From Hericium rajendrae (lineage: Eukaryota > Basidiomycota > Agaricomycetes > Russulales > Hericiaceae): 64,000 nucleotides of DNA. The stretch is from the NCBI GenBank assembly GCA_033439255.1, contig CM065884.1:372001-436000 (forward strand), given 5' to 3'. Within the stretch, counting starts at the first letter, position 1. The number at the start of each line of letters is the position of its first letter. Position numbers and translations under genes: made by a program. The notes beneath the pieces are model-generated. The model saw nothing but the letters and a program-made list of their open reading frames with translations. It made no database searches and was not told the DNA's origin. Positions 16,907-42,799 of this stretch are shown here, in pieces.

Positions 16907-17986
16907 CCAATGGATGGGATTTATGACTTTTCTTTACGCGGTCCTGCGTCGTAAGAGCAAGATTCAAGGTCTGATGGTCGGGGTTCAGTATTCTCCCTCC
17001 ATCTATCACTTCATTCACAGATTAACGCGAAAAATAAAACGTCCAAAAACCCTTGCGAAAGCGGTTCTATCAAGATGACAATGGCAGGTAATGCGTAGAG
17101 CCTGCCATGGGTGATATTCTCCGGCACATGGTACGTCTTCATCCGGCGGATCTATGTGAACATTTGCGAATATTCCACAACTCTCCGCAGCAATTGTACA
17201 TGTTTCCACAAAGTCCCGGAATCGGAAAGTCCGGAGTCCGGTCGTCCGAGCGTCCGAGTCCGGTCGTCCGAACGTCCGAGTCCGACCGTCCGACCGTCCG
17301 GGCCTGGACAGACGGCTAGTCGATCGGGGCGAGATCTCGATCGGGGCTGCAATTACAGCGGCAGCCATGACGTAGTAATCGGGCAGCAGGGGCGCGATCG
17401 TGACCTTCAACAACGGTCATGTGATTGCGTCGCGTCGTCTGCACGTTGGTATCCTTCCCCCTTCTTCCTCCCCACTCCCCTTGCCCCCACCATCATTTCT
17501 CTCCTGCTGCTGCCCGCCGCCATACCCCTCTACATCTGTGTCCCATATCAGCCAGGCCTGATCCCTCTGTTCCACGCACAAACAGCCTAGGGCCACTTTC
17601 TGACCACCGGTACGCCTCCACTTCCTGCATGATGGATGTGGGCCTTCCACACTCTCTCCCATGTTCAACGTGTTTGCGTCCTTGTCCAATCAAGTGTGTC
17701 TACAACAACAGGAACGGAAATATAGGAAAACTTTACGTAAATGTATGATACCCTTTAGTTTTGACGACGTACCGTACCGGCGTGTGTGCTTTTCGTCCAA
17801 CTAATATTGTCACCACAGTGCTATCGGGCTCGCGCATCTGGTGGTCATTGCCAGTTCTTTCGATTCATAAAGTCTCCTTCTACGTCTCCTTCTACGTCAC
17901 CCAGCCTATCTACCAGTTCGGTAGACATCCGTAACAGCACGGACGACGCCACCAGTCTAGACAGCGACCATAGCACTGGAGTGATC
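16907..17986. other. Intergenic, mostly unassigned
   Basis: About 1.1 kb between REV1 and the Cys/His-module gene. It contains the CGTCCGA minisatellite described separately and pyrimidine-rich stretches at 17455-17530. No further coding sequence is supported. Confidence 0.5.
17229..17302. repeat. CGTCCGA-type minisatellite
   Basis: Imperfect tandem copies of an 8-11-bp motif (GTCCGAG, GTCCGGTC, CGTCCGAC). The complementary-strand form of the same motif recurs at 48619-48686. Confidence 0.75.
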
Positions 17987-20327
17987 ATGCCTGGTAAGCG
18001 AGAGTGCGCATACACAGGCTGCGATAACACCCGGATCAACAAGAATTGCATACATCAGTTCTGCGCTCCGCATTGCCGTGCCAATGGCGGATGCGATGTG
18101 CACAAATCTTCAGCTCGAGCATCTACTCAGCCTGGGGTGCCCTCACAGCCTGCACCCCTGGCATCCTCATCTTTGCCTGGTCCTTCTAGATCCACTAGTG
18201 CTGTTCCTGGAGGGCCCCCTCCAGTACCGGCAGCACCTTCTGTCGCACAGGCAGTGCCATTTGCACCACAGCTACGGCAATCGCAGCCTCCTGCATTTCG
18301 TACGCCGCACCTCCAATCTCGTAACGCACCATCCTTTGTCCGCTTGGATGTTACCCCTGCCTCTCCAGCTCGTAACGCCCATGAGTCGCCAGTGCGGTTG
18401 AATGTTACCCCTGCATCTCCAGCTCATAACGCCCGCGAGTCACCATCTACCTCATTGGTCACCAATTCGGCACAATCTCCTTCAATCTATGCAACACCTC
18501 GTGAGCTACCAGGGCCATCTGGGACACGAGGGCAGAACGTCCTTCTTCCAGCCTCTGCAGCTCCTCTGCAGCCAACGCAGCCGAAGCCAACGCAGCCGAA
18601 GCCAATGCAGCCGAAGCCAATGCAGCCGAAGCCAACGCAGCCGCCGACAATGGAAAAACGGTATATGAAGCGGTCGTTCGAGGACCAGCACAATATGGAG
18701 CAGGAACTTCACGAGGAACAACGTCGACGTGACCAGGAGCAGCTCGCGAATGCTCGTCTATCCAAACAGAATGTAGTCATCTATGGCTGGCCTCAGGTAC
18801 GTCTTGCCTTCGCCTTCACCTCCCTAGTCTAGTCGGACTGAGGGAGATCACCAGAACGGTTCTCCGGTCCTCCATGAGACGCAGGACTACATATGGCCTA
18901 ACCTAGCTGTCACACCTGCTGTCCTTGCCAAGGTGGACATCAGAGAGGGTGCCATTCAGCGCTTCAATCCCTTTCTCAAGCGCTGGGTCAACATCGATCG
19001 TGGCTATGTCATCTCCCTGGACAAGCTCAAGGACCCGGCTATCTTTGTTCGCCGAGAAGGTGTGACTGATGCTCATGGTCTAGAGGAAGCTGTACAGCAG
19101 CATACGCCATCTGTGTCCAAGGGGCAGACACCTACGACGTCTGGGAGTGGGTTGGGACTCTTCTTTGAGCAGCTTCCGCAGGAGAGGGCCGCTGTTCGTC
19201 AGGTACTTGCTGCTGCTGGTATGGAGGCAAACAAGACACGGAGGGGCAAGACAGTGAAGGCTCCAGAGTTCCGTTCCGCTATGGCAGAGCTGCCATCTCA
19301 GACCCCACTCATGCCCACCATTCTATCTGCCGCTGCGGCTAATATGCCAACCGTTCCTGTTCCGCCTCACAGTGCTTCTCAGCAGCCCACTCCTCATGCA
19401 GTTACACCGCTGGCTATTCATCCTGCCTTCAGCAGCCCAGGCCCAGATTCTCCACCTCGCCTTAGTGCGGCAGAAAAGGGCAAAGCACGGGCTCACACTG
19501 TGGTCGTTGATGGTAGCGTTCCAGATAGGCTTTCTCAGGCCTACCCTCAAGGCCGCGGTCAGACTGCCCCTGTTCCAGCGTTTCATCGCATTCCTACCCC
19601 CCTTCCAGCATCAGGAGAGCAGCGTCGTGTTCCTACCCCCCTTCCAGCATCAGGAGAGCAGCCGCATGAGTCTCGTCACTTTCCTACCCCCCAGCTGTTG
19701 CCAGAGGTCATTGAGATCTCCTCAGATTCTGATTCTGATGATGGTCCACCTCCTTCAAAGCGTCAGAAGCAGTTCATCGACATTGTGGACCCAACCAGTC
19801 CCAATGTAATTGAGCTCACCTCGGTTTCTGGAGTCTCGTCTCCGTCCCTCTCTGAGGCTGTGGACGTCGATGTCAAGCCCACACATCTGATGCCGTCTGC
19901 GTCTCCTTCCGTCTTCACTCCAAGATCGTCCCCTTCACCGCCAGAGCCTTCAGCACCAGCCTGCTCCAAGGCTGTGAAGGCTTCAACAAGTATCCGACAA
20001 CGACGGACAGCAGGCTTCAATAAATCTAGAGAAAAGGCGAATAAGTGGCCGCAAGCATATTACGCCTGTGATGTCGTAGCAACGTACCGATACTGCCTCA
20101 AAGATCCAGAGGAGACTCAAGAAAGCAAACCTGGAACGGTCAAGGAGAGGTTTGAGGCCGTGGTAGGCAAGCGCTGGGTCCATGGTACATTCTACGACAA
20201 CTGGACTCGATGGAGCAACGCGCCGCAGTCCCTTCGGGAGAAATTTGAAGACGCTGGGAGGACCGAGGAGGGTATGTGGTCGAAGTTCATGGAAGAGTCT
20301 CTTGAGATCCTTAACCGTCAAGCTTGA
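17987..20327 (+). CDS. Cys/His-module protein with SUMO-interacting-like motifs, convergent with the TET/JBP gene
   Basis: Two exons (17987-18796 and 18855-20327) give about 760 residues. The extreme N-terminus carries a compact metal-binding-like cluster: C7, C12, C21, C26, H29, C30, C36 and H39, i.e. C-x4-C-x8-C-x4-C-x2-H-C-x5-C-x2-H. A long Pro/Ser/Thr-rich linker follows, with QPKP repeats (about 18570-18645) and a duplicated PTPLPASGEQ block (about 19595-19660). Two hydrophobic-then-acidic motifs, VIEISSDSDSDD (about 19710) and NVIELTSVS (about 19803), resemble SUMO-interacting motifs. A C-terminal region rich in aromatic and charged residues reads KWPQAYYACDVV and GKRWVHGTFYDNWTRW. I do not recognise a named family. 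The same cluster occurs in the protein downstream of the KDZ transposase at 36566, suggesting a transposon-linked accessory factor (inference). Confidence 0.75.
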
Positions 20328-20515
20328 ACCTTGTTCCTCGGTCTGACATCTTTTGGTACATCCTATTTTTTTTGTCGTTTTGTTTTTCAGATCTTGTATC
20401 CGTAGCACATCATTATGTATAAACCACCTTTTTTTGAGAATAAGTTGCGTCACTGTTACTCACACCATCGCATGACGTGAGCTACGATATGTCGAAAGGA
20501 CTAAGTGAATATACT
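20328..20515. other. Convergent intergenic gap
   Basis: A 188-bp gap between two stop codons of convergent genes. It contains T-rich stretches at 20360-20390 compatible with 3' UTR or termination, with nothing else visible. Confidence 0.5.
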
Positions 20516-23500
20516 CTAGTAGATTACGTGACTCCAGCTGTTTTTACCCTCGGCCCACTTATCCATTTCTCTGTCATTTGCAAGAACAAATGATGCACGA
20601 GTACCTTCATAAGGAAGATTAAAATGAGTTGTTCTGTTCGACTGAAAGCCCGCCAGATCAGCGTTCCTCAGGTCGACAACCAAACCTTGTTCGTACAGCA
20701 CAAGCTGTCCTCCAGTAAACTGACCAATTGGAATAACCAAACAAAAGTCTTTGTCCTTGCCGTCGCGATGTCCGTTGGAAGAGATATTGAGATTGATGAC
20801 CAGGCTGAGAAAAGGAGGAGCAGGTGGCTGAGTATGTACCGGAAGAAGATGAGCTTCATAGGAATGAGACTTGTACTGCTCTGGGAGGTATCGCTTCATC
20901 TGATGTTGTGAACAGTAAGGGCACCGTGTGTTATAGAGGAGAAAAACTCTTACTGTCAGCTCAATCCAAGAAAACAAGTCCTTGAAGACGTCCTCCACCA
21001 GACTCAAGACGTCTGCATATTCTGACATCTCTCTGGAGCCATACGGAAGGAACTGCGACCGATTTGTTCGAGCAACATCAGCACGAACCAAATTGTACGG
21101 CAAGGCATCCACTGGAGTCCCGTCGCCCTAGATCAGACGTTTGAGATTAAGCATCAACTGAGATTGGGGTAATTGTGTGTATGCGTACCTTGGTAGTATG
21201 GCGATTATAGAACGAGAAATGATAGCTCTCATACCGCAGGTCTGGTCCAGCGTCTCTAGAGTTGCGAGCTGCCAGCTCATACTGGAACAGGAGTTGCATG
21301 TTGGGATATAGGACATCTTTGATCGAGGACGGCATTGCATTTGACAGAAACAAGAGGAGCGAGCCATCTGAATTCTCCAATCGTAAGTAATTTCTATAAA
21401 TCAGCACAATCAGCCACGTAGATATTGGATAGCAAACAAGATACGTATGGCACAATGTGAGAGGAGAAAGCAATATAATCCTTATTGCTACGCCTTCTGC
21501 CTTGGTCGTAAGCAACCAAGAGCTATGTTTATATGTATGCGAGTCAGATCGCTGCTGAATCCAATGTGACAACAATAAGAACATACCTTCTGTCTCAAAT
21601 CATCCACAGATATTGCAGGGGATGCCAATGCCTTTGCAGCAGCGCCGCGTTGCTTCTCTGTCCACCGAAAACTACTATCCCAGTTAGAATCAGTCTTTTT
21701 CTTCTTATTGCAAAGGAGATTCCAATTGTAGGACGTCTTGATGACCTCAAGAGTGTCAAGAAAGGACGAGGAGCACAGACCCTGATGAGGAAGCGTCAAC
21801 GACACATTATCCAAGGGGAGAGTGGCAAGGGATGTATAAGATGTAGCTGTTGAAGAACAAGAGGAAGATGATGATGATGCTCCTGAAATATGACGAGCAA
21901 TCACGTCATCAACAGTCATTGTCTGCTGTGCTTGGAGCAAAGGGATCGCATTGTTGACGCTCCAGGATGTCATATTCCGCTGAGGGAATAAAAATGAGCT
22001 GAAGACCAGAACATTGTTTAGCCAGGGAAAAGAATACCGAATCATTCACATCACGTACTTGAAAGGTATAGTTGAGAAGAAGATGTCCGACGTCTCGAAG
22101 CTAGTTGCATCCATGTAGGGCGGCAAAGGCCATGTTGAAGTGTCCTCATGCGAAAAGAGTCCCCGCAGATCCAAAGGAATCAGGCCACGGAGACGGTTGA
22201 TGGCAGGAACAATACGTTGGCAGATAATCTGCCCTACAGGCATATTGGACGGAGGGGATCGCAGCAGAACTCCAATGTTCTGAGCAGTTGCCGAACTGAA
22301 ACTGTGGACCTTTTCTCGATGTTGAAGCCCAGCTACGAGCACAAGAGCATAGATGGTCCCTACCAACAAGTTACTTTCGGCACAGCACATGAGCATACCT
22401 GGCTATGACTCACCTCCAGCTGCAATCAATGCGTACTTCGTACCCTTGAGATGCCAATCGTTGAAGGTATTATGAGTCACCCTGTCCAAGTGAGGCACGT
22501 TTGCGATCAGACGCTCAAACAGGTGTGACTTATTCATGGTAGGATATAATAAAAGGAGACTGGATAAATGATCTCGTAAGGTCACTGCAAGCTAACAAAA
22601 GAAAAGCATGACAAGAACCCACCGTTCGGTCTTGATAACAAACTGCATTAAGCTCAACATAGTCGCAAAGCTAAGTCCAACATTGGTGCTCGTAGCCGCC
22701 CAGCACTGGGCCGCAACATTCTGAAAGTCTTGTTCTGGCGACAGCGATCGACCCGCAACATATTGCGCAGATACTGTCCGAACAGAGTCTGCCCAGACCT
22801 CCAGAATATCAAGGCTTTCAGCCTTTGCATGCTGAACGGACTGAGCTCCCTCTCCGGCTGCCTGCCACGCACCAAGCAGAGCAAGGAAGCTCGATGCATT
22901 GGAGTCGGCAACGAAGGCTTTGTTGGCCGTCCGCTGCCAGTTTGCTGGCCTCCCTGGTGGAACGCCCCCTCGCGGGCATGGTGAAGGAACTCGCGGCGGC
23001 AATTCACCTCCCCAAAAACTGCCTGCTACGGCCCCACTTTGATTTCCTCCACGAGAACGCAAGTTATACGGTTTGGCACGTACATTGCCTGACGACGCTG
23101 CGCGGACAGGCCCCGGCCCAGCAGGCTCATCCCGCTCGGACATCTCATCTTCGCCGTCTTCATCATGAACCCATCGTTGGGGCTCTTGGGGCTCCGGTTC
23201 GTGTTCGCTCTGCTCCAATGACTGGTCTTCGATGTGGTGTTCGTCAAGCTGGAACGGCTCCTGGAGATTCGTCATCGACGGAAGAGCCAGTGGTTCCAAA
23301 CTGAGAGGACTCCATGTCAGGGGGGTCGAGGTGAGAGGACATGACCATGGAACAAGACGCAAAGGTTGGGCGACGGTGCTACAGCCGTGTGCACGAATGT
23401 CGGTCTCAACGTGCAAGGTGGATGCCAGGAGCTGTAAACTATTCAGAAAGCACAAAATTAGCTAGACAACATCCAAGATAAACATAGCCACATACTCAGA

Positions 23501-23884
23501 GCCTGACCCAGAGTCCTGCGAAGCAGCATGCGACGCTAACAAGACCAGTGCAAGGACAACCTCTTCCTCCCCTTCTATAGCTGGCCCAGCATGCCTATTG
23601 CGCAGGTCGTTGATAAGGCACAGTGTACGCGCCAGGAGGGCGGATGAGATAAATGGCATGGGAGAGGGAGTGGGAAGAGCAGGACCTGAGATGCGAGATG
23701 CGAGATGCGAGACGCAGAAGACCAGCCAAGGCCAGCCAGACGCGTCACGATGCGCAGCGTGGGAAAGATACTGGGCACCCCAGAGACATTTCCACGGCCA
23801 GTTAGCTGCAGAGGAGACAGTGAAGTTTAGCTGCTGGAGGAGACATTTGCGTCTGTGGCAAATGTCTGTGGACTTCCTGGTCAA
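20516..23884 (-). CDS. TET/JBP-type 2OG-Fe(II) dioxygenase (5' end unclear)
   Basis: Multi-exon minus-strand gene. The C-terminal exon holds a double-stranded beta-helix dioxygenase core. The metal motif H-x-D is in NGHRDGKDKDF (codons about 20762-20770). The strand CLVIPIGQFTGGQLVLYEQG follows, the distal His is in TTHFN (20624-20626) and the 2OG-binding Arg is in TRASFVL (about 20598). This matches the fungal TET/JBP family, which oxidises 5-methylpyrimidines and is known to be expanded with KDZ transposons in Agaricomycetes. Upstream exons encode Ser-rich and charged regions and a probable N-terminal exon at about 23496-23870 (AIEGEEEVVLALVLL). That exon joins the next with a clean frame across about 23439-23495. 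No ATG was found upstream of about 23870, where a gene X copy begins, so the 5' end may be lost. Intermediate exon edges are approximate. Confidence 0.8.
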
Positions 23885-24851
23885 TGCAAGACACTAACGC
23901 GACCAGTTGCTAAAGAGAATCAATGCGTCGTAATGCGTTGTTCGAAGATCGAAACGACATGCTCTATCTAGTTAACAAAGATAATACTCGTTATGCGCAC
24001 AAGCAGGAGGAAGCTCAGTTAATAGTCGCATGGGCAAGGATGGGAGGACACCATGTGTAGAGATAAAAGAATCTTGGTAAAAAGCTATTAGCTTCAACTC
24101 ACGATCTAGGTACTCTTCTTGCTTCAAACACAGCAGTGACGACTCCAAGGCCCCAGGAAACCTCTTCCATGAGGACATTATGACCCTAAGGTCCTCGAAC
24201 CATAGCATTCTATCCCGCCAATCCCGCTTCTGGCACCCGTATTCGTGGCCTACGATAACGTCACCGTAGTTGGGACCGTCTGGCCAAACCTTCTTCCTTT
24301 GCTCGGCCCGCCTGCTCCGTCGATCCTCGTCCCATTCTGCAGCTGAGATTTGTTGTTCGTCATGATGTTCAAACTCCCAAAAGATATGAGCCATGTTGAG
24401 CTTGTACAGGATAGTCGCACGTATAACTGGATGATTAGATATAGACGGGTTGGCGACACAACCACAAGAAAGCGGGCGATTAATGAATCCCATGCCAAGA
24501 CTGCCTGAAAACAGAGAGCCAAAGAATTGATCGGAGCCGTGGGCCCAAAATTTGTCCGGTTCGTATGGTAGGTGGTCTTTGGGCCACAGGCGCTTCCAGT
24601 GACTGTCGCCTAAAAAGGAACACCACTCCGACGGCGAAAATGTAAGGTTGCGGTCTTGAATGCGCCGGAAGCCCCAGCATCGTGCCAAACAATACCAATG
24701 ATAGAAGAACGTATTTCTGGTCTTCTCTTCTGCTGGGCCCCAGAACAGGTGGATCGGTGGTAAATGATATCGCCATCCGCAAGTCAGTTCCTTTTCCATG
24801 AAAATGGGCACCGTATTTGGAGTGGATGTGGCCCAGGTCTCGATGACGCTG

Positions 24852-25056
24852 CATCAGGAAACTCCTCACTTTCCTGACTTCACTGTTCTGAGCCTGATGT
24901 CACTGTTTTGGACCTGATGTTACTGTTTTTAGACTGATTTCAGACCTATGGGTCTGAAAATGATCTGAAAATAGTCCAAAAACAGTGACATCAGGTTCAA
25001 AACAGTGACATCAGGCTCAAAACAGTGAAGTCAGGAAAGTGAGGAGTTTCCTGATG
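24852..25056. mobile_element. 205-bp near-perfect hairpin (MITE/foldback element)
   Basis: The sequence from CATCAGGAAACTCC to GGAGTTTCCTGATG is almost its own reverse complement. Two arms of about 97 nt meet near 24945-24960 (CAGACCTATGGGTCTG). Each arm contains repeated CCTGATGTCACTGTTTT-like units of about 21-22 bp. Alignment with the intact gene X copy shows a clean insertion at GACGC^TGGGNACCC with a 2-bp TG duplication. No coding capacity, so it is non-autonomous. Confidence 0.9.
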
Positions 25057-25731
25057 TGGGCACCCAATCTGGGCGGGCAACCATGTTTTGAACCCGGCGG
25101 CTGCTCTGAGTGTGCTTCGGTCGTGAGGCATTCACAAGATTACGTTCATGTGCGACTGGCATCATCTCGTGAGGAACACGATTTGGCAAGGGAGAAGGAA
25201 TACAACTCACGGTCTTGTTGTTGGCGCATTTTCATTCCCATAGCTCTCTGTGTGAGTTGTTCAACGTCATCACGTGGAGCGTATCCACGTGCCGCGAGCT
25301 CGAAGAGGGGGCCATTAGCTGAAGGGGGTGGATAGTACCATAGCTCTTTGGTGTGCTCTTCGACTGACCCAGCCGGCACTCCTTCGTCCCGCCACTCGCT
25401 GATCTCAGCACCAACGAAATTACACCAATCTATCAACCGAAGGAAGCCCTTTTGATATGAGGGTGAAGGCAGGTGGTATTCGGAGAGGGAGACACGCAGA
25501 TACGCGGTTATATTCCTAGATTCAAGCATCTGGTACACGCGGGGGTCGGTGGTGATACTGCCACGAGTGGGAATACATGTTAAGGCTTGTCGGTTTGAAG
25601 TGCTACTAGTGAACCAATCACAGAAAGCTTGCAACTCAAGCAGGTGGCGCTGAATTGTTCGAACAGCCTCGATGATATCGCGCCTGGAGCATGGGGCATC
25701 TTTCAGTCTTATCAGAGCAGATAGTATGCGG

Positions 25732-25896
25732 TGGAGTAGTCCCAGAGGGAGGAACCCTAGCTCGGTATATGAGGTGGTGGGAGGATGATCTGCTATACAT
25801 GCCGACAGCAAATATCTATCTATGCTGACTAATCACCCTCTGAAGCGGTGTAATCACCTCTATCTCCCCCTCTCTGACCCCTCTATCCCTACTCCA
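25732..25896 (-). repeat. 3' LTR (165 bp) of the short LTR element
   Basis: Direct repeat of 28337-28501 with the same termini. It is adjacent to the polypurine tract at about 25899-25910 when read on the minus strand. Confidence 0.9.
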
Positions 25897-25946
25897 TCAT
25901 CCCCCCCTCAAACATAGGTGACGCCCTCGTCACCTGCTAAAAGACC

Positions 25947-28052
25947 TCAACCTGCAGACCCACAAACCCAGCCTAGACTCTCCAAAACCCTACTCAGCTC
26001 AATCAAATGTGGATCTTCATCCCAATGCAGAGGCAAGGGTGACACAGCAGAACTGGAAGCCGGACTCGAAACCTGCATGATGGATGGCTGACCTGCATGA
26101 AGGCCAGCTGGGTGACGATGAGTAATTGCCAGGCCAGAAGAGACTGCTAGTCGAGAGACATGAGATCGGGGAAAATATGATTGACGTCGATGTGAGCGAC
26201 GAGCTCGACGTTGCAAGGAACTGAATGGCCGAGTTGCAAAGTCAGAACGCAAGACTGAAAAATCCCGGGGTGCAGGCAAGCATGGTGACGAGGCAACCAC
26301 TATGGGGAGTGAGTCACAATCATCGGCCCACGAGAAGGATGTGCGCGAGGTTGCGAGCATGGGTTCAGGCAACTTGGGGTCGACATCCTTTAAGAACGAC
26401 GCGGCGGCTGCGTGGGGCTTTCCCGGTTCGAATCCGGGTGCCGGCGTTTGCGCGCCGTTGTGCGCTGATGTGGGGACGTTGCACGGGGTGGATGGGGAGG
26501 TGCGGTGCGCCGATCGTGGGGCTCGGGGCACGGTACGTGCGTGCGGGTCGTCCTCGCAGGCTGCATTGCGGTTGCGTGGCTGGTCTGACATCACGGATGG
26601 CGGTGCGATGTTGCTGGGTGGTTCGGGTACATCGCATGGGGCCGCGATGTGTGTGCGCGACGCGGGAGACACGGTGGTGGGTGCGGGGTGTGTGTCCGGC
26701 TCGCGGTCACTCGGAAACAGCGACGGGGGGTCGGCAAGGGATGTGGGCAGGTTGTATGCGGTTGCAGCATGCGTGCGCAACGCAGAAGGGACGGGGGTGT
26801 GTACCAGTCGTGAGTCTCCGTCGTGCGCGTGCCGCGCGGCGTCTACCTTATCCACTCGGGGCCCTAGGCCCTTCTTTGTCTCGTTCTCCGCAGCGCTGGG
26901 GCGTACGATACGGTCGGGCGGCGTGCGCGAGTCGTGGGGGTTCGCGGTAGGCATTTGGGGCGCGGTGGAGGCGGTGGGGGCTGCGTGGGTGTTCATGGTG
27001 GGGACTCCACGCGATTTGCGATTGGTGGCTGCTGGTGGTCTGGCTGGCTCGCGCGCGATCGCGAATGACAGCGGTGGACCACTACGTGATGTAAGTCCGT
27101 CGTGCGAGGTTGTTGTGTGCGTGTGGGACGCGGGAAGGGTGTCGGGAGGCGCGGGGGGCGCCGTCGTGCTGCGGACCTCGCGTGGTTCGCGTTCAGTTGC
27201 CGCGGGTGGTCAGTCTGACTCGGGCGCGATCACGAATGGCGGTGCGGAGTTGCTGGGTGATGTGGGCCCGAAATTCGAGCTCGTTAATGCGGTACGCGGA
27301 GCGAGAGAGGAGGTGCGAACTGCGGGACGCGCGTTCTGCGCGTGCATGTCATGTGGCTGTGGCGTAGGCGCTGGCGTTGGCTCGTTTGCGGTGCTTGTGT
27401 CTAGCGTGTCGACAGGGGCGATGGTGGCGATGAGCAGACGACCGGCGCTCATGGCTGTGGGCAGCGAGGATGCTAGGATGTTGCAAGTGGTCGTAGGAGA
27501 CACGAGAGCAGCAGAGGGAGGTGCCACCTGCAACGCAATTCGCGCGATCGCTGTGTCTGCGAGGACATCGCCTGCGTCAACTGCAAAAATTGACATCGGC
27601 GCTGCGTTGCATGCTGGCCCAGCGATCGCGATAGGGCGCGATAGAGCAAGCACGGCCTGGCTCACCTCGAGTCGGCCTTCCCGATACCCGTTCCTCAAAC
27701 CCTCGAGACGTCCCTCTCTATACCCTTCCCTATGACCCTGCTCCAGGCCCTTCACCATGCCTGCCGCTAAACCATCCTGAAATCCAACTCGTTGGCCCTC
27801 TTCAACGCCAACTTCGTGTCCTCTGCGCCGCGCAGTTGCTTTGATCTCCCAGAGCAGCGCCGGTTCAATCTCCTGTAAAGATTGTGCTTGCGCGGGGGCA
27901 GACGTGGTGTTGCTCGGGTTTGCAGGTGGTAATGGCACGGGGTGCGGTGTGTAGTCGCGTGCTGAGAAGGCAACATGTAGCATCTGTGTCGTATCGCTAT
28001 TAGCAGCTAACGCAGCGCGGGCTGCCTTTGCGCGTCGGTTCTTGCTGCCCAT
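25947..28052 (-). pseudogene. Internal ORF of the short LTR element with a 13-fold Gly-x3 helix; one in-frame stop
   Basis: One reading frame stays open for about 700 codons from ATG at 28052 (MGSKNRRAKAARAALA) to the stop at 25947, broken only by a TGA at about 27210. Residues about 75-125 have Gly at every fourth position thirteen times in a row (GHEVGVEEGQRVGFQDG, then LAAG, MVKG and so on to GYREG). This resembles the deca-GX3 motif of Yae1/Lto1 proteins. The rest is a Pro/Ala/Thr-rich region with diverged repeats (PPAATERE and PPAATNRKS blocks). The stop sits where a repeat homologue suggests an Arg codon, so CGA-to-TGA decay is plausible. Function is unknown; it could be a gag-like or captured host protein. 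Confidence 0.65.
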
Positions 28053-28336
28053 AACGAGTAATTGGCGTGCGCCCGTCGAATAAGAGATGGCGAGTCGGTA
28101 CACGAACTATGCAGAAAGGGCCAATGACACGGGAGATGCAGATACGCAGACGCGGAACGCAGGATACGAGACGCAGGACACGAGACACAGGACGCAACGC
28201 AACGCAATGCAAGAGAGACGAAACACGAGACCGCCGGAGACGCGAAAAGACTGTGAAGAGTGCAGAAAAATGACAGAAAACTGCAGGGAAACACAACGCT
28301 ACGCTGATGGGCCGAAAACCACTCTCATCACCAAGA

Positions 28337-28501
28337 TGGAGTAGTCCCAGAGGGAGGAACCCTAGCTCGGTATATGAGGTGGTGGGAGGATGATCTGCTA
28401 TACATGCCGACAGCGAATATCTATCTATGCTGACTAATCACCCTCTGAAGCGGTGTAATCACCTCTATCTCCCCCTCTCTGACCCCTCTATCCCTACTCC
28501 A
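28337..28501 (-). repeat. 5' LTR (165 bp) of the short LTR element
   Basis: Direct repeat partner of 25732-25896. The right-hand flank resumes gene X at GCGGCGAGG. Confidence 0.9.
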
Positions 28502-28949
28502 GCGGCGAGGTGCGGTGGAGGGAAAGGATACATGACGATAACAGGGAAAGTCATTGATACGAGAGAAACACAGTTGCGCGCGTGCTTGAAGAAGTTCTCG
28601 CTCGTTGCGCAATTCGTCGATCCACTTCTGCGCTAACACAACGCGCGTGGGGAAAGCGGGGTGGGGACATAGATCAGATCGTGTGGGCAGGCGATACAGA
28701 ACGGAGCATGAGGTGTTCTTGGTAGGTAAGCGTATCCAAGCCAAGTACGGGGAACGAGGATCAAAAGGTTGCGGGAAGCGGGTCCAGTCGTGCGGACCCC
28801 ACAAACCGTCGCTGCGAACCAACGCCGTCTCATCATGTGGCAATTCAGGGATATAGGTCGCATGCGCTGCGACGACCATCTCTCCGGGCGCCCATCCAAG
28901 GGCCCAACATGCGAATGGAAGGTCTAAGCGACGTAGAGAAGCAGACATC

Positions 28950-29500
28950 TTAAGGGAAAAAATCAAAATGTAATGAGTCAGTTTAATGACAACCACAAGG
29001 AAACTATGCACAGTCATACCTTATCTTCACTGGCCTATATACTAGCTACGGTAGCTACGGTGCCGCGGAGATCCGATCAAAGTATGGGCCGGCAATTTCA
29101 GCACCTCGGCGAGATACTGGGGTGATTGAAGTATACGAGATCTGAGCGCACAAAGCGTGGAGCTCTTTTCTCGTACACCGTGCCCAATAGGAGGCAAAGA
29201 GTGAGATGGGAGATGGGGAAGAAGTATGCACGATCGGAGCGCACAAGGCGTGGAGCTCGTTTCGTGCAGACAATGCCAGAGATGGCCAGCACTGAGTATA
29301 TCTAGTGAGAGCTACAAAACAAAGCAACGAGAAGGCAACGAGAAGGGTCAGCAAATGGGGAATCAAGATAAATTTACTCACATTTGGCAGATCTAGACAG
29401 AGTCGAGACGAATTAGCAGAGGAACAAAGTGGGAAGGAGAGTGGACAGCAGAGATGTGGAAAAGCGGCGAGGTGAAGCTGAGGCGTCCAAGGCTCGCCCG
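28950..29500 (-). repeat. Gene X leader/upstream segment, copy 2
   Basis: Homologous to 42800-43376 (plus) and 63360-63910 (minus). It contains a conserved GTGAGT...TTTTGTAG intron-like segment (about 29300-29385) and two 40-nt imperfect repeats around ACGAGCTCCACG...GCGCTCAG (about 29129-29174 and 29219-29265). Likely promoter and spliced 5' leader of gene X. Confidence 0.75.
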
Positions 29501-29688
29501 AGGATGACATAAGCAGGATCTATTGCGCGCCTATGAGACGACACCTCCGACAGTGTGACAGGCGTCCGTACCAAGTCCTCCCTAGTCCTCCTCGCATACA
29601 ATTCCTGTAGCACTCGTCTTTTCTGTTTTTGCACGAACAAGCCCTGCTATATAATTCCATAGGCGATTAATATAGGTGAGCCAGCGTA

Positions 29689-30033
29689 ATCACCCTCTCT
29701 TCTCTCGATGATTCCTCGAGGGTGCGGCTACCTCGGCCGCCCCATTTCTCTTTTTTTTTGCAGGTATACATGACTAGGCCGCAGCGCCGCACCAATCGAC
29801 TCCACGCTCTGTGCGTCGGGAGGTGCGTCGCCCAGGTCGCTTTGGTCATCTTTGTGCCGTAACCACCCTCTCTTCTCTCGATGATTCCTTGAGGGTGCGG
29901 CTACCTCGGCTGCCCCATTTCTCTTTTTTTTGCAGGTATACATGACTAGGCGGCAGCGCTGCACCAATCGACTCCACGCTCTGTGCGTCGGGAGGTGCGT
30001 CGCCCAGGTCGCTTTGGTCATCTTTGTGCCTGT
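29689..30033. repeat. Tandem duplication of a 173-bp unit, plus a partial third copy
   Basis: 29689-29861 and 29862-30033 are about 95% alike, starting GTAATCACCCTCTCTTCTC and ending GGTCATCTTTGTGCC. A diverged partial copy lies at about 30122-30205. No coding function is evident. Confidence 0.85.
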
Positions 30034-30249
30034 GCCGACACTGCGCTTCAGACCGCCCATACATGATTGACCGATTGTCCTGCCATCCCGGCGTTTCTTT
30101 CTCCATACGCCACGTTGTCTCATAGTGTTGCACCAATCGACTTCATGCGTAGTGCGTCGAGAGGTGCATCATCTGGGCTTCCCGGGTTGCTTTCATTATC
30201 GCCATCCTCTTTCATCCATATATCTAATGTCGACCTGCTTGCCCTAGTC

Positions 30250-30690
30250 TGCGCAAGACTATTGCGACGACACAGAATCTGTACCACCGGTTCCACCTCT
30301 TCTTCCCGTGCAAGGACTTCAATTGGTATGTGAGTCCTGCTGCGCATGGCATGGACGACCGCTGATGGACAGATGGGCGGTAGAAGGTGACGCTCGCGGC
30401 ACTATACGTCTCCTCGAAGATGCACGACACGCTCAAGAAGCCGCACGAGATCCTCATGGTCTGATACTCGATCCGCTTCTCCGAGCAGGCCGCAAAGTCC
30501 AAGTCAATAGCCGGCGAGATCGACATGGACCCCGCCGTGCGTGCTTAACAGACTGAATGCAGCACGTATGTTTACGATGGTTCGTTGGGCGCAGGTGGTC
30601 GAGCAGGGCCGGGGGCGCCTGCTGGCTGTCGAGCGGCTCATTCTCGAGACGATTTGCTTCAACTTCACGTCGGAGAAGTACATCTGAGAA
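30250..30690 (+). pseudogene. Fragment of a transcription cyclin gene (CTD-kinase beta/cyclin K-like)
   Basis: Frame reads KTIATTQNLYHRFHLFFPCK, then after an intron-like gap LAALYVSSKMHDTLKKPHEI and, after another intron, VVEQGRGRLLAVERLILETI ending FTSEKYI. This is the cyclin-box pattern of CTK2/cyclin K-type proteins. The frame contains an internal TGA (MV-stop-YSIRF, about 30460) and both ends of the domain are missing. Retained intron-like gaps argue for a copied genomic fragment rather than a processed retrocopy. Confidence 0.65.
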
Positions 30691-33602
30691 AAAGACCAGT
30701 GGTATATGACACTATGTAGCCTACATAGCTCTGATAGGGCCATAGGAGTCCTCTTTTCTACATAGCTACTCCATAGTAGTGAAGTAATCTATATAGAGCT
30801 ATGATAGCTATGATAGCTATCATAGCATAGACTATAAGCTATCATAGCTCTCATAGCTGCTATAGCATATAATGGCTATCATAGCTATGTCAGCTATGTG
30901 GTATATCTCTGTTATCATATCATGTCTAGCTAGTAGGGCTGCTATCTACTCTATATCACCTATGTCTTGTATGCTGCTTAAGAGTACTAAAATATATTTA
31001 AATACTCATATATATTATATATTTCAATCTTATTGCATCTATAACATTTAAATAAAAGCATTATATTTCAAAAAACATTTAATTGTAACACATTTAATTT
31101 AATACAAAGTTACAGATACTACACATCTATACTACACTACAAAAACCAACACTTCAAGATAAGATCAAAACATACAAGATAAGATGAGATAAGATTTAAA
31201 GATAAGATAAGATAGAACTGAAAGATAAAAGAATAGATCAATAAGATAAGATAAGACTTACTACATAGATAAGAAAAAGCGAAAATAATCTAAAGGCAAA
31301 GCCAACAAATTAATATACAAGACACAGATATAAAAAAACATAAGACTTACTTAAGATAATAAAAGCGAAAATGTAGAAGTCTATAAAGAACAGTAGGATT
31401 AGTGAACAATGAAGCAATATAGCAACAGTATAACAACTTACCGAACATCAGAGAGTTGAGGCAAGAGAAGAAAAAGCGACGAAAGACGGGAGATGATAGT
31501 GGTAAGAGAAGAGAGAGGAAGCGCGTCGCGCACGTCTTATATAGACGTGGCGATCGGAGCATCAAATGTGGCTGTCGAGACCGGGCCGGGCGGTGCCGAG
31601 CACTCGCGTCAGAGGCTAAGTGCCAGATTTTCCTAAGTTCACTTCGTTTCCCCGTAGCTTGTCGTAGCTTAGTTAGATATTCGTCTCATACGATCCGATT
31701 AAATAAATGAAAGCTGGTTTCCATCTTTTTCTCAGAGTTTAAAGGAATTTATTTGATTTACAAAGCCTCGAAATGTTTGAACTCGCGCGCGTTCGGTAGC
31801 TGAAGCACCGAAGGCGCGTCGAACTTCGACTCTCATATCATCCTTACCACCCTCCTCCCTCCTCGTTCTTCAGCCGTTCCTCTGCTCACTCACTCCTCGG
31901 ATCGAACGCGGGAGGGTCTCGATAGGGCGAAGAGGGCTGCTATAGGTAAGTAAAATACTTTCTATTGGTAATGTTTGTACTCATAAAGAGAGTATCACTC
32001 GTTTTCGAGCGATACTCTCGTTCTTCGACACCCGCAACGTCTCACTCCCCTCCCCCGTCACCTTCTCTCCGCCACGTCGTCTGCGTCCCGCCCGCTTGTC
32101 GAACACGGCGCCGGCAGCCCTGGCCCTCTGCGCCTCACCAACAGCTGCGCACGAAACCGGCCGCGTGCCAGCAAGCTCGACAACCCGCAATTGGACCCGC
32201 ACGCCCTCGCTCACGCCCCCAGCCTCCCTTTGTCCCATTCGCCGATGACGGCATCCACGTCCGCGTCGTTGTGTCTCGTTGCCGTGGCAACGGGGCACGA
32301 AGTCGTTCGCCCGGCCTCCCGCCACCTCGTGTCTCATCAACGGCCCGCGCACGCCTTCAACAGGGTGTGCGGGTCCACCATCTGACCACCTTCGCTCACC
32401 AACACGTCCCCGCCATCGACAACACGTCCCCACCGTCGACAACGAGCTCGCGGCCATGACACGTGGCTAGGCACGGCCACTCACCCCAATGGACGGCCCT
32501 AGCCAGCGCGTGCACGCACTCCCGCGTGCGATCGTGCATGGCGACGCACGGCGTGCAAACTCGCACGAGGCCCCGACTGTGCGCGCACTCGCCACGGCCA
32601 TCTCCCCGACAACGACACCAACACCTCCGCTACCGCTGCACCTCGTTGCCGTAGCAATGAGGTGCGGCTCTAGGTCATTTGCCCGGCCTGCCGCACCCTT
32701 TGTGCCCCTCGCACGCCCATCCGCGCACCCTCAACAGACCCGGGCCCGCGTGCGACCCCGTCTCATGAGCTTTACGCTCCAGCACGCCCGCGCCCTCAAC
32801 ACCGTGCTCGTGGACACGACACGTGGCCGTGCGCGCGCGAACGGCGTCGTCAGCGCACGCATGCCCGCACGCGAGCGCGCGCAGGCCACGCACGATTGCA
32901 AGCCACGCGAGGTCCTAGCTGCACGCGCACGCCGCGAACAGCCTCCAGCGCGCGCATGCGCTCTCGTATATGAGTATGTGACCGCGCCTGGCCCCGCGAA
33001 CGCGCGCTTGCCCCCGCAACGGCGCGCGGGAGGACCAAGGGCCCGGGCATGTCCGCGCCAGCCCCCCGCACGCAAGCTCGCGATACGCAGGCCCACAAGA
33101 GTCCGCGCACGGCCCACGACCCGCGCCTGCACGCCGATATTCCGCCCATACACGGCCACGCACGACCGCGCCAACTCGCGCTCGGCCGTGCGCGATCGCA
33201 CGCACGCAATAACCGGCGACGCGCAAGGTGCGCGAGGGTGCGAGGTCTTGGGACCTTTCCTTACAAGTTTCCTAGATTTCGTAGTTATTTTGTCATAGTC
33301 TAGCCATGAATATAGTACAATTTTGACTCAATATCTTGTGTGCCTACTTGACTTATGATAGTGGTTATAGTAGCTATAGTACATGTAGCTTCCCTAACTA
33401 AGTATGATAGCCCTATGTATGTGACACTCCTGGCTATGAAGGCTATGTTACCCTATGTCTTTGACACTTCATGCTATGGGGACTATCATAGCCCTCATAG
33501 CCCTCCATAGCTAGATAGGTTAGCCACATAGCCTCTATAGCTTACCCATAGGACCCATAATAGGCCTTGCTGCTATATAAAAAACAGATTTCTCAGATGT
33601 AC
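30678..33602. other. Composition mosaic bounded by a 14-bp inverted repeat; possible DNA transposon
   Basis: GTACATCTGAGAAA at 30678-30691 is exactly inverted at 33589-33602. Just inside both ends are stretches dense in ATAGC/GCTAT words (30710-30910 and 33300-33560) in opposing orientation, like subterminal repeats of DNA transposons. The inside is AT-rich with GATAA repeats (30970-31450), then promoter-like sequence, then very GC-rich low-complexity sequence (about 32000-33250). No transposase is recognised. No convincing target-site duplication was found. Confidence 0.45.
31159..31260. repeat. GATAA microsatellite-like tract
   Basis: Interrupted runs of AAGATAAGATAAGAT within an AT-rich block. 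Confidence 0.7.
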
Positions 33603-34037
33603 GTATCCCCATGTTGCCTTCGTTTCCCACTGACCCCGCAAAAACGCAGCCTCCAAGAAGCTCAGCAAGCTCGCGTGGTGGCTTACAATAGACAGGTGCG
33701 CCGCTTCACACTTGACTCGCCTTCTCGTGTTCACTCGTACTAGCAGGTCTTGGAGTCTCAGACAGCGCTGTCTGTCTGGTGCCATCCGAACTATACACAG
33801 CGGTGCTCTGCATACCCATAGCTGCTGTCAGTATCAGCTATATGGAGTTTTTATGTGCGACCATGTGATCAAATGTGAAACTCAAGTATTTGTGTTATCA
33901 ATTCGAATCTATCCCCTGCTCCTGCGATCCGATCGTGCATTTCTTCCCTCGTCTTGCCATCTGTCTTGCAACCCTTCCATTGCCCTGTCTCTCTTGTCTA
34001 CTGTTGATCACCGCTGTCTATCTACTCTACATTAAGG
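33603..34037. other. Upstream region of the KDZ transposase gene
   Basis: About 435 bp with no supported gene. Pyrimidine-rich sequence at 33930-34020 precedes the ATG at 34038 and is probably promoter or 5' UTR. Confidence 0.45.
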
Positions 34038-36266
34038 ATGGCGACTATCCAATACCTCGCATTGCAACATCAGGCTCATCCACGCCTTGCACTTCTAACC
34101 TTGGAACAGTTGAATCAATTTCAGCAGCTGCGATGCGCTATCCGTCCCGAGATACGCCTCAGCCTTCCTTCAACATGGGATGATTCATGGGTGCCACCAG
34201 CACTGGGGCCGAGACTGGAGGAATACCTCGCTAATGCCTGTAATATCACCCGTTCTGACGCGAAGATGTGCTGGACTCTCCTTTCCCAGTTCATCTGGAC
34301 TGCCCCAGAAACACCCCAATCAGTTTCGGACAGTTTATTGACGAGGTTTGGACATCCGTCCGGAGGTGGGTATCTCAAATCAAGGACTTTTATTCTCCCT
34401 ACTCATGAGTGCTCGACAGCGGAGCGCGTGCTATATCCACCAAATCCTTATTGCCAGACTGCTGGCTGTCGTCGACGCATGATTCCACTGGCAAAGGTTG
34501 AACCACGAAAGGTGGTCCTTTTTACGCTGGGCAGAGGCACAAGGCCTGCCTATCACATTCACTTGTACTGCGAGCGTGAGTCTGATTGATTTATGTTTGT
34601 AGTCGTTCTATACTAAGTACGCTACTACAGATTGTAAAACCAATTATCATCATGACTTTCAGGTTGTAGATGGGCGTCGGCAATACTATGGAGGCCCTCC
34701 GGGCGATTGCCTGCAGATCGGTGATCACCAGTTCGCAGAGACCAAGCTCGTCAACCATTGGATCCACCTCATGCTTTACTCGTGGTTTGTATGCTTTTGG
34801 GCCCTATTTTTGTCGGTGGCTGAATTATTGATAGGACGTCGGCCACGAGTGCGGCTCGCACATATAATGCAGAACTTGGATTGAGTCCTGATGAAGTTAC
34901 CGCCTTCAAAGTGAGTTGGTCTTTCTCTCCCACTTTGCGACCAGAAGAAGTGTGGGATGCATTCATCATCACATCTTTACTGGAGGACCACGCGCGTCGT
35001 AGTTCCATCCTTGTTGTCCCTCAGCAATGCGATCAAAAGGACCGCTTCACCGAGGCCATGAGGATCCGCAACAATCGTATCCGTGTCTACGGACAAGATG
35101 AACACCGACACTATTGCAACAAGTGTATGCGTCTTTATCAAGCTGAAGGGGCATCTCGAGCAGGTATTTTTTTTTTCTCTCTTCTTATATATCTAACGTT
35201 TCTCAACAATTTGTAGAAAAAGTCTCTGTTGTTGTCATTGATGGGGTCACTATCGGCCATCCATGTTGTGCAGCACCCAATGGACCGACTGGTCCATGTC
35301 TAGAACCTCTTCAGAGCAACCGCCATCGTTTCTGCGCTCATCATTCATACCTGCAGACGGTCTGTGCCATCAAGGGCTGCACATCATCCATTCGTCCTGG
35401 TGCCAAATTTACATGCTCCGATCCAGAACATGCAGCCATGGAAGCTCGACATATACAACGAGGTCAAGCCTGGTTCCAACTGAAACGCCGTCTCGAACGG
35501 GACAGACTCTCACAATATCAGCACTTTATTGGATTTGAGGACGACACAGATCAGCCCATTGTTCCTGAGCCTGCTGAAGAGGAGGAATTCCACTTTGATG
35601 TGTCAGGAAATCTTCTTGGTGACGATGAACCTCAAGCTCAAACCAGCTCTCACACTCGGAGATTCTGTGCACAATTCACACGAAAGCGGACTCACAACGA
35701 GCAACTATTCGTTGCGCCATGCAGCATGATCATTGCTCGAGAAACCTTCTATGGGGCAGAGGCCCTGACGGCGGTTAAGGTCTGTACACTCTCAGTGTAT
35801 ATCTAAAAATATGTGCTTATCCCGCGGAGGCTAGGAAATGATCAAGAGTGTTTATGTGTTGCCATGGCTCAAGCCTAGTCATATTTTCTACGACAATGCC
35901 TGTGGACTTTCAAAAATGGTCATTAATCAGGGAGATCCTTTCTTCGCCGATATTCAGCTGGTCGTCGACGTTTTCCATTTTCAGTGCAAACACTCCCAAA
36001 CAGATGCATGGTGCCAGTCTCATTGCAATCCAGCTGCATTCCCACAGCTTCATATAGAGGGTAACAAGTGGTATTTCAATTCGTCAGTTGCTGAGCAGAC
36101 TAACGCATGGTTTGGTGGCTATCTGTCAATATGTCGGGAGATGCGAGTGGACAAATATGAGTTTTTTCTCGACGAGATGATCCTTCGCCATAACATGGAT
36201 ACAAAGACGAAGTTAGAGCGGGATAGATGCAGTCCTAGATATTACAAGCAGTCTGACTTTGCATAG
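34038..36266 (+). CDS. KDZ-type transposase with CxC5/CxC6-like cysteine clusters
   Basis: Five exons (34038-34575, 34631-34784, 34835-35163, 35217-35779, 35835-36266) join in frame to 671 residues. The N-terminal region carries the first cysteine cluster (YCQTAGCRRR, then across the junction YCEHCKTNYHHDF). The central region reads VWDAFIITSLLEDHARR, VVPQQCDQKDRFTEAMRIRN and HYCNKCMRLYQ. The second cysteine cluster lies in GHPCCAAP, RFCAHH, CAIKGC and TCSDPEH. These are the layouts Pfam calls CxC5 and CxC6, clusters associated with KDZ transposases. The catalytic core candidates are D in VVVIDGVT, D in IFYDNACGLSK and E in SVAEQTNAWFGG. All parts are intact, so activity is possible. No terminal inverted repeats were identified around it. 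Confidence 0.85.
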
Positions 36267-36565
36267 ACACTGATATATGTAGTTCAAATATGAAACGCGT
36301 GTGTGCGTGAGTGAGGAAGAGTGATGTTTGTATTCCAAACGACTAATTGCCCATGTTGTGCGATGTTGTCGCCGCCGGTGGTAGGTATAATTAGCATGTA
36401 TTGCTCCACCTGGTGTACGTTCGTCTTTTCCCCTTCTTGCATCTCCTGTGTACTCTGTCCTTCCCTTGTGTTTTTGCCATTACCATTTCTTCCCACTCAG
36501 CGGTACGTATGTGCTGTGGCAGTACTAGTCCATAGGCTGAATTGATGTCTACCGTGGCCCATTAG

Positions 36566-37383
36566 ATGCCCGATTTCACCCCACCCACCAGTTCCTCGTA
36601 CAAACCGGTGTTGACGATTGCAGACATTTGGCCTGAGTATGCAGAACCGAAACCGTCCTCAGTATGAATTTCATCTTATGATAATATTCATTCTGATCAA
36701 TTCTTTAGGACCCGGTTGATACCGAGGACGCCGTGAGCGACTGCATGGATAACGACGATGACGACGATCTTTCTAATGGCTGGTTCTACGGCAAATTTTG
36801 CTGCACGGACTCATCGGAATGTCGCTTTTTCGCATTCCCTCAGTGTCCTCGCAAGTATTGTCATCATCATTGCACACTGTACTACCAGGGCGATTGCCCG
36901 TACTACTGTCATCAAGACATCTCACACATGCTACCTCCTGAACTACAATGTTCCGTCAGCAAAGATTGCACCCACCACGTCGCCATATCTTGCCCCCGCT
37001 CCCTCTGCCAGAACCACTGCGAACTCCATTCCGATGGTGTCTGTGACTTCCATGCAGCGTTCGTCATTCCCCCGATGCCTTCACCTATCTCGCTTTGCCC
37101 CATGGACGTGGACGTCTATCACACTGGGTACTGCTCACCATCGCCGTCCTCCTGGTACTTCGAGTTCCTCTCCTCAGATGCTATCCCAGATCTGGATTTG
37201 GCTACAGCTGTGGTATCGTCTGGCAACTCAGTGTTCTCTTCTAGCGATGATTTGGTGTTTTCGTCTAGCAACTCGGCAGGCAGTACCAGTAGCTCTAACT
37301 GCACTAGTGACTCTGTGTTCTCCTGCGGTAGTTCAGCATCTACAGCTAGCAGCAACAAGGGCGATGACAACAACAAAATATGA
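36566..37383 (+). CDS. Small Cys/His-module protein next to the KDZ transposase
   Basis: Two exons (36566-36661 and 36709-37383) encode 256 residues starting MPDFTPPTSSSYKP. An acidic stretch (DNDDDDD) precedes two copies of a Cys/His cluster: CPRKYCHHHC...CPYYCH (about 36850-36915) and CPRSLCQNHC...CDFH (about 36990-37055). The C-terminal third is Ser/Asp-rich. The cluster signature C-x4-C-x2-H-C-x(5-7)-C-x(2-4)-H is the same as in the N-terminus of the protein at 17987. It lies 300 bp downstream of the transposase in the same orientation. It probably acts with the transposon (inference); no named domain is recognised. Confidence 0.75.
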
Positions 37384-37648
37384 CCGCCTCCACACCCGTT
37401 GGAATACAGTATCGCAACTTCAGCACTCTCTCCTCAGTCTATGACTATGACGTTACTCAGACTAGCATTTTATTGTTCTGCATACCATGTATCCTTGTGT
37501 ACTTAATAAATTCCACACCACTCCCGCGATCCTACTCGTTGCCGCATCGCACATGTGTGTCGTCGTCGTCGTCCTTCACTGTGGGGAAAATCTCGTTTAC
37601 CCACCGGTCACATGACGAGATCACAGCAGTACAGTGAACAACTGCTCC
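37384..37648. other. Gap before the 5.1-kb LTR element
   Basis: 265 bp with a short GTC trinucleotide run (about 37559-37573). No gene is seen. It ends at the GCTCC target site of the LTR element. Confidence 0.5.
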
Positions 37649-38135
37649 TGTAACGGATGGTTTATAAGTTACTACTATAGTCTTCTACTTTCTTACTCTT
37701 TTCTACCTGGCTTACTTTTCGAGTTTTGCAGAGTTTCCTTATTAGGATAGCTGAGTTTGAATCATGTACTTAGAGCGGATTTCCTTATTGGGAATAAGCA
37801 TCTATCTTGCCAACTCACCACCATCTGTCTGCTTTTGTCTCAGTCTCTGCTTGTTCTCCTCATATCTGAAAGGTTCTCTTGGGATCCAACCCTCAAAGGA
37901 AGGTGTGTGGCCCCCAAAACCCTCATTAGGAGGTCTATATCTGCTGCTGGCCCTCAGAGGAGGTGCCAGCTCATCACTCATCTGCTTGGCTGCAGGACTG
38001 AGGCATCCTTGGTTCTGTTAGTTCTAGCTCGTGGACTCTCTCTAGGAGGTCTACGACACCTTTATACCCTCCTCACTCGCTCGCCTACCTTGGACTTCCT
38101 GGGCAGTAGCGGCTCGACCTCTATCGTCCGTTACA
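37649..38135 (+). repeat. 5' LTR (487 bp)
   Basis: Direct repeat of 42307-42793 with 9-bp inverted termini. Confidence 0.92.
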
Positions 38136-38190
38136 AAGGTGGATACATCCGGAAGTCCACTTGTCTCTGGCTGGCTGGTGAGGACTTCAC

Positions 38191-41900: not shown

Positions 41901-42306
41901 AGTCTGGAGTCTGGGTGGCTGAGATAGCCTGTGGCCTTGGCTTAGCATCTTTTATCCTTCTCTTTTGGATGTGAAGTGCTGCAGCTGGAGGACTTGTAGC
42001 TTGGCTAGGGTTGGAGGCTGCTCTGTTAAGAGAGCTTGGTGCAGTTAAGTCTGGAGCTGCAGAGCTTCACATGCAGATTTTCTCTTCAATTTTCTTCTCT
42101 AATTTTTCACTCTAATTTTTCACTCTAATTTTTCACTCTTATCTTGTTTCTACTTTCTTCTCTAGATTTTTCTCTGATTTTTCTACTTTAACCCTTTTTC
42201 TTCTTTTCTAATTTTGTCTTGTTCCCTTTCTGCTTTGTTCATTCTCAGCTTTGCACTACTCACTTTGTGTTCAGGGGTCTCAAAGACCAAGAAAGTGGGG
42301 GGGCTC

Positions 42307-42793: not shown

Positions 42794-42799
42794 GCTCCG

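Follow-up and report, generated by a model that had tools for sequence, protein, structure and literature searches.

We identified a 31.5-kb DNA transposon in Hericium rajendrae, within a 64-kb window (the whole stretch of DNA analysed, positions 372,001-436,000 of contig C7, CM065884.1, assembly GCA_033439255.1). Along with a CxC5-CxC6-KDZ-like transposase gene and a TET/JBP-like dioxygenase gene, this element carries two genes, A and B, whose products contain cysteine/histidine (Cys/His) modules with a common ligand order, and similar module genes recur at similar elements elsewhere in the genome. We consider it reasonably probable that the modules belong to accessory zinc proteins of large CxC5/CxC6-type KDZ transposons, which would probably serve as DNA-binding cofactors bringing the transposase or the dioxygenase to the element.

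The transposon and its four genes

Genes A and B were originally noticed as two loci 18 kb apart, and it was suggested that they could serve the same transposon system. Since A, the TET-like gene, the KDZ-like gene and B all lie inside positions 17207-48707, the two loci are one element, and to this extent the suggestion is supported by 8-bp duplications around both genomic copies of it. A collinear copy at C2:2230143-2312006 aligns in 14 blocks with 92-100% identity, mostly 96-99%. The two copies have identical start and stop bases, and each is interrupted by insertions absent from the other; minus the four blocks that the C2 copy lacks, the window transposon measures 19,023 bp. The window copy is flanked by the target-site duplication CATGTTTC, and the C2 copy is flanked on both sides by a different one, CTTTTCCT, with one extra G before the right one. 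In the window, the two ends match each other imperfectly in inverted orientation, at 73% over 89 bp, so that both the inverted ends and the target-site duplication of a KDZ DNA transposon are present. Exact 8-bp duplications were found in four of the five copies for which both ends were read, namely those of the window, C2, C1 and C9a (C9:1.305 Mb). These data support the assignment of both module genes to one transposon. Its features are as follows (window coordinates; o/e, observed/expected; aa, amino acids).

17199..17206, no strand: left target-site duplication CATGTTTC, 8 bp
17207..48707, no strand: whole transposon, 31.5 kb, delimited by the collinear C2 copy and shared sharp ends
17207..17360, + strand: left terminal inverted repeat, CpG-rich GTCCG/CGTCCGA repeats, CpG o/e 1.51
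17987..20327, + strand: gene A, 760 aa, exons 17987-18796 and 18855-20327, module at residues 7-39
18005..18103, + strand: Cys/His module of A, from the motif and an independent profile (E 5.9e-7)
20516..22560, - strand: TET/JBP-like dioxygenase gene; C-terminal exon 20516-21127, upstream exons partial, start uncertain
22592..25811, - strand: open frames lying upstream of the dioxygenase gene and perhaps forming its N-terminal exons
34038..36266, + strand: CxC5-CxC6-KDZ-like transposase gene, 5 exons, 671 aa
36566..37383, + strand: gene B, 256 aa, two modules; C2 copy at C2:2291051-2291698, 96%
36799..36912, + strand: first module of B, from the motif search
36949..37053, + strand: second module of B, from the motif search
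48528..48707, - strand: right terminal inverted repeat, same GTCCG/CGTCCGA repeats, CpG o/e 1.28
48708..48715, no strand: right target-site duplication CATGTTTC, 8 bp

Introns were placed by eye or with simple splice rules. The acceptor site of A was chosen by frame from several possible ones, the 256 residues of B assume a first exon at 36566-36661 and a second from 36709, both read by eye, and the transposase model is the top of 56 open splice combinations under a simple score.

The transposase gene matches CxC5 (E 6.7e-37) and CxC6 (E 1.7e-24), both over cut-off. B had been described as lying 300 bp after a KDZ transposase; the distance is correct, with the gene ending at 36266. The Pfam KDZ model gives no match at E ≤ 1. 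A profile comparison of the C-terminal core with the KDZ cores of this genome returned a weak alignment (E 0.0096, probability 4.3%) that pairs D-x2-C, FH, C and E. KDZ transposases are expected to contain a first catalytic aspartate, which has no evident counterpart in the alignment. We use the label "KDZ-like" because of this low significance and the unpaired aspartate. The genome holds at least 172 stretches matching Pfam KDZ, and the eight loci that exceed the CxC6 cut-off are the same eight recovered by the transposase protein as query. Among relatives of the transposase core sought in IMG/VR, 37 pattern matches were obtained and none was confirmed.

The original prediction also placed A convergent with a TET/JBP gene. 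The convergence holds, and the family identity falls below the cut-off, the last exon (20516-21127) matching Pfam Tet_JBP at E 8.4e-4 with 19.0 bits of the 34.9 required. Seven genomic relatives share 37-53% identity with the gene, six of them likewise matching Tet_JBP below cut-off, and an H-x-D plus a later H were seen by eye. Judged by these likenesses, the gene may be a diverged Tet_JBP member with a TET/JBP-like function. Three pieces of the upstream frames at 22592-25811 were compared with Pfam, with no match at E ≤ 1.

CxC5/CxC6 elements are large and contain nested insertions. In the window copy, a 5.1-kb nested insertion at 37648-42790 has a 7-bp overlap at its edges and the lowest CpG o/e of 12 segments, 0.56. 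A MITE-like (miniature inverted-repeat transposable element) insertion of about 206 bp at 24851-25057, missing from the C2 copy, has long inverted ends CATCAGGAA..TTCCTGATG, consistent with the CATCA..TGATG termini of PlavakaB (PMC12730594). The C2 copy contains a 39-kb insertion (C2:2248104-2287344) with a 4-bp overlap at its edges and two Pfam KDZ matches (2258695 and 2274865). Near the window edge, 60169-63901 is a second, partial relative of the window element, with 83-95% identity to internal and inverted end pieces.

The Cys/His module and its recurrence

The pattern under which the modules were first described, C-x4-C-x2-H-C-x(5-7)-C-x(2-4)-H, occurs three times in the six-frame translation of the window, always on the + strand, once in A (18005-18103) and twice in B (36802-36912 and 36949-37053), and in none of 100 first-order Markov simulations; the three motifs are sited and patterned as claimed. 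An extra C-x(4-5)-C-x(7-8) precedes the pattern in all three, giving eight candidate ligands. Thirteen copies aligned by eye yield the consensus C-x(2-5)-C-x(7-10)-C-x4-C-x2-[HC]-C-x(5-11)-C-x(2-4)-H, with every ligand present in 13/13, a count that owes something to selection because the A-type rows were chosen with the pattern; the B-type rows other than those of the window were recovered by sequence similarity too. Not counted among the 13 are the C2 copy's three modules, another B2a gene, the third (L053), which fits as well, and the A-type module at C9a, which a stop interrupts. A relaxed version of the pattern detects three modules in the window and three in 150 kb of C2, all within the duplicate, and no further module in the same 214 kb. 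In addition, a profile built from ten modules, with no window sequence among them, recovers the open reading frame (ORF) of gene A at E 5.9e-7 in a set of 5,266 ORFs, drawn from 341 kb and including the ten themselves, and no unrelated ORF falls below E 0.1.

A RING-like zinc finger with eight ligands is the probable identity of the module. zf-C3HC4 matches three of the 13 modules, with a best E of 9.4e-4, and the whole B2b ORF of C1 scores 16.5 of 21 bits against RING/C3HC4, below cut-off; such short modules give weak E-values. A sequence search for a solved structure of the module returned nothing better than E 5, and NCBIfam gave 0 matches for the six stretches tested. Two identities were rejected: that of a CxC6 cluster, whose Pfam cut-off is not reached (best 13.9 of 27.5 bits, in one of 13 modules), and that of the plant SHI/STY finger, since DUF702 is absent among the four families that match the 13 modules at E ≤ 1. 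In the A homologue at C7:1.66 Mb, the N-terminus looks by eye like a GRF-like zinc cluster, but Pfam gives no match at E ≤ 10 and we make no claim for it.

Genome-wide searches covered one assembly of 46.8 Mb in 19 contigs, and several loci were read in part. Module genes were found in or near seven of the eight CxC5/CxC6 loci, or five of six excluding the window and its copy. At C7:1.663 Mb, the transposase is followed at 0.4 kb by the start of a B-type ORF, and an A homologue is also present; this element has inverted-repeat-like ends 6.5 kb apart, between which only KDZ-like, B-type and A-type genes were seen, and no exact 8-bp duplication was found at its ends. It is a small element that lies between two similar host genes, esterase/lipase-like by eye (C7:1661001-1671000). 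At C1:0.706 Mb, two genes of the B-type (709.4 and 715.3 kb), a dioxygenase-like ORF (714.2 kb) and an A-type gene (718.5 kb) lie with the transposase in an element (C1:704369-719250) bounded by the 8-bp duplication CGAACTAT. The C9a element (1302877-1321460), bounded by CGATATCC, contains the same set of KDZ, B-type, dioxygenase-like, B-type and A-type genes. At C9:2.624 Mb, where the element was read without its far end, two B-type genes and a dioxygenase-like ORF lie 16-25 kb away in a block inverted relative to C1. The locus at C10:1.605 Mb has an A homologue with its module 9 kb from the transposase, and homologues of the C-terminal domain of A were found at C7:1.667 Mb and C10:1.614 Mb (E 1e-9 and 1e-8). 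Thus four diverged element families (window/C2, C7:1.66, C1/C9 and C10:1.605) have at least one module gene. The 3.2 kb immediately 3' of the transposase was examined at the five loci on C9, C1 and C10, and no module gene lies in any of these five stretches; at four of these five loci the module genes are on the other side of the transposase.

Setting aside the window and its copy, the DNA no more than 27 kb from any of the remaining six loci amounts to 0.72% of the genome. With the B-type protein of C7:1.66 Mb as query, five of six non-self matches at E < 0.01 fall within this distance, and with the N-terminus of A, four of five non-self, non-copy matches at E < 0.01 fall within 22 kb, counting a neighbour of the second C10 locus. 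The corresponding binomial values, 1e-10 and 6e-9, are overstated, since the C1 locus and the two C9 loci belong as copies to a single family. Two matches fall elsewhere, namely C14:1199773 (with two stops, E 2.9e-4, and no module in stretch L003) and C9:888650 (E 0.007, a match limited to the module tail). The searches support a clustering of module genes near other CxC5/CxC6-KDZ loci far above chance; the enrichment foreseen in the original prediction is therefore seen in this genome, at distances of up to 25 kb rather than the 5 kb proposed. A widespread host zinc-finger family, the alternative named there, was not seen: queries with A, B, two B-type proteins and a third A-type module gave no host family, as a lower bound, with C9:888650, C5:322501 and C4:1998499 lying outside the inspected set. 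The leftover weak matches (L003, L008-L011) contain no module. Beside ordinary KDZ matches none was noticed, with no systematic search made for it.

Selection was assessed from the ratio of nonsynonymous to synonymous substitution rates (dN/dS). The B-type gene B2a gave 0.23 between C1 and C9a at 72% identity, indicating purifying selection, and the dioxygenase-like ORF gave 0.10-0.18 over three pairs (C1, C9a and the third C9 locus). The window and C2 copies, a young pair with few changes, gave 1.28 for exon 1 of A and 0.26 for B.

A dioxygenase was found at five of the eight CxC5/CxC6 loci (window, C2, C1, C9a and C9:2.624). The C1 dioxygenase-like (2-oxoglutarate, 2OG) ORF matches the window gene at E 4e-6 in a single comparison and has no Pfam match at E ≤ 1. 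Genome-wide it has 63 matching stretches at E ≤ 1, self and split pieces counted, some within 2 kb of ordinary KDZ matches (C3:3257277, C4:955315 and C6:2993125). With so many matches, some beside ordinary KDZ genes, the C1-type dioxygenase looks like a general companion of KDZ. Between the A homologue and the transposase at C10:1.605 Mb there are two long ORFs (C10:1609344-1612063), one of which has a THFD stretch reminiscent by eye of a JmjC/2OG oxygenase, to which Pfam lends no support.

Possible roles of the module proteins

Between their ends, such elements encode the transposase, one A-type module protein, one or two of the B-type and often also a TET/JBP-type dioxygenase. As cofactors, the module proteins would most likely dock on the CpG-rich repeats at the ends of their own element, or on its chromatin, and, once bound, recruit the dioxygenase and/or the transposase to the ends. 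Such recruitment would keep the ends unmethylated and usable, the module proteins acting in the manner of the Arabidopsis protein VANC and, in elements that encode a dioxygenase, together with it. The CpG-bearing terminal repeats differ from family to family: GTCCG/CGTCCGA in the window element, CTGCGA at C1/C9 and TCCGCCGG at C7:1.66 Mb. In the window, CpG o/e is 1.02-1.07 in the host flanks, 0.69-0.88 in the element genes and 1.28-1.51 in the terminal arrays, which are short (154 bp left, 180 bp right). This contrast is consistent with genes that were formerly methylated and ends that were kept clear, and falls short of proof. We only tentatively propose, and think it rather unlikely, that the whole forms a self-targeting demethylation kit in which the module proteins read their own CpG-rich ends and recruit the on-board TET/JBP-type dioxygenase, each family having its own repeat and reader, as a fungal counterpart of VANC with its own enzyme.

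Several observations weigh against the cofactor reading. CGTCCG occurs at 41 sites in the window, with only 11 in the 334 bp of the arrays, and the nested blocks have CpG o/e values of 1.04, 1.25, 1.23 and 0.56, so that three of four are not CpG-poor and mobile DNA here is not depleted as a rule. The 10 kb read at C7:1.66 Mb showed no recognisable dioxygenase, from which it follows that the module genes are not strictly tied to one, and none is supported at C10:1.605 Mb. At C10:1.963 Mb, where the transposase looks decayed, no module was found in the 13.4 kb fetched around the locus; the nearest A-like module is 21.6 kb off and possibly outside the element, and the count reaches eight of eight loci only with this neighbour included. 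The C9a A-type gene has its stop within the module, and B2b, the neighbour of B2a, has a dN/dS of 0.61 between C1 and C9a. Moreover, the three C1/C9 loci are paralogous, so that the counts are not independent, and all counts are those of this genome alone. Finally, gene B is missed at E ≤ 1 by the ten-module profile, even with A added.

This last result bears on the claim that A and B carry one shared module, of which the ligand order and spacing stand and the profile relationship does not. A fits the element-borne family by both profile and place; because the profile misses B, its membership follows from spacing and its place behind the transposase only. That A and B are unrelated Cys/His-rich proteins with convergent spacing, A alone belonging to the family, is doubtful but deserves weight, as B as a query matches nothing in the genome except its own C2 copy. 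On the other hand, B has the full set of eight ligands twice, ordered alike and almost identically spaced, and B follows its transposase as the B-type ORF does at C7:1.66 Mb.

The main rival, which we regard as unlikely, holds that the module proteins are parts of the transposition complex, active in end recognition or synapsis and unrelated to methylation. It would explain why the C7:1.66 Mb element keeps its module genes where no dioxygenase is seen, and the A module weakly resembles the transposase's own CxC6 (E 0.064-0.38). Nevertheless, a dioxygenase at C7:1.66 Mb may have been overlooked or lost, and the exact duplication is lacking there. It is improbable that the module genes are passenger host genes, captured as cargo and aiding neither movement nor escape from silencing. 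Large elements do capture genes, and the nested insertions reveal slack, but module genes have been retained beside transposases with 31-54% identity by exon to that of the window and in differing gene orders, B2a is under selection, and no host copy turned up in the searches made.

Known systems and significance

TET+ Kyakuja and Zisupton are KDZ DNA transposons of Agaricomycetes (PMC12730594). The window element resembles these TET+ transposons in combining a KDZ-like transposase with a TET/JBP-like dioxygenase, and resembles Zisupton in its 8-bp duplication. Unlike them, it has a CxC5/CxC6-type transposase that lacks a Pfam KDZ match, and extra module genes; "zinc" and "cysteine" do not occur in the text of that paper. 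Its imperfect inverted repeats also differ from the repeat-free CA..TG ends and 7-bp duplications of two Kyakuja families (PMC12730594). CxC cysteine clusters are known to accompany KDZ transposases, as Pfam CxC5 and CxC6 and as CxC7 in fish (PMC12062965). The modules share this linkage, with the weak CxC6 match of A, and differ in residing in separate genes rather than within the transposase and in scoring far below the CxC6 cut-off.

In sporeless Pleurotus ostreatus, MSH4 is disrupted by a 6,792-bp insert with a 739-aa CxC5/CxC6 ORF, a case of mobile DNA comparable to the present element, and CxC5/CxC6 regions number 44 to nearly 60 per genome (PMC7641404); PMC12568894 concerns the same mushroom strains. 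Those authors found no KDZ transposon near such ORFs and suspected a Copia element (PMC7641404). By analogy, our results suggest that the Pleurotus CxC5/CxC6 ORFs may be transposases of their own elements.

The RING-like finger of plant SHI/STY (DUF702) proteins, CX2CX7CX4CX2C2X6C, is described as plant-specific (PMC9846857, PMC9386158). The B-type module of C7:1.66 Mb, C-x2-C-x8-C-x4-C-x2-CC-x6-C, has the same cysteine order and near spacing, whereas the DUF702 profile matches none of the 13 modules at E ≤ 1. VANC of the Arabidopsis VANDAL transposons binds noncoding, fast-diverging tandem repeats and induces loss of silent marks (PMC10398659). Here too there are transposon-encoded proteins and noncoding tandem repeats that differ by family, and, unlike in VANDAL, the element often encodes an enzyme as well; the likeness is one of analogy only. 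We found no description of an accessory module of this kind in the literature surveyed, and the founding KDZ/TET work (Iyer 2014) may contain one.

In conclusion, ends and 8-bp duplications are now given for CxC5/CxC6-type elements, copies of which have been counted in the sporeless oyster mushroom and their movement ascribed there to a Copia element (PMC7641404). Many mushroom genomes are known to contain KDZ transposons equipped with TET/JBP enzymes, and the question addressed here is how such an enzyme would find its own element. The presence of similar genes in related elements points to helper proteins by which an element may be guided or protected, and the recurrent accessory, putative zinc proteins are concrete, directly testable candidates for guiding the enzyme to it.

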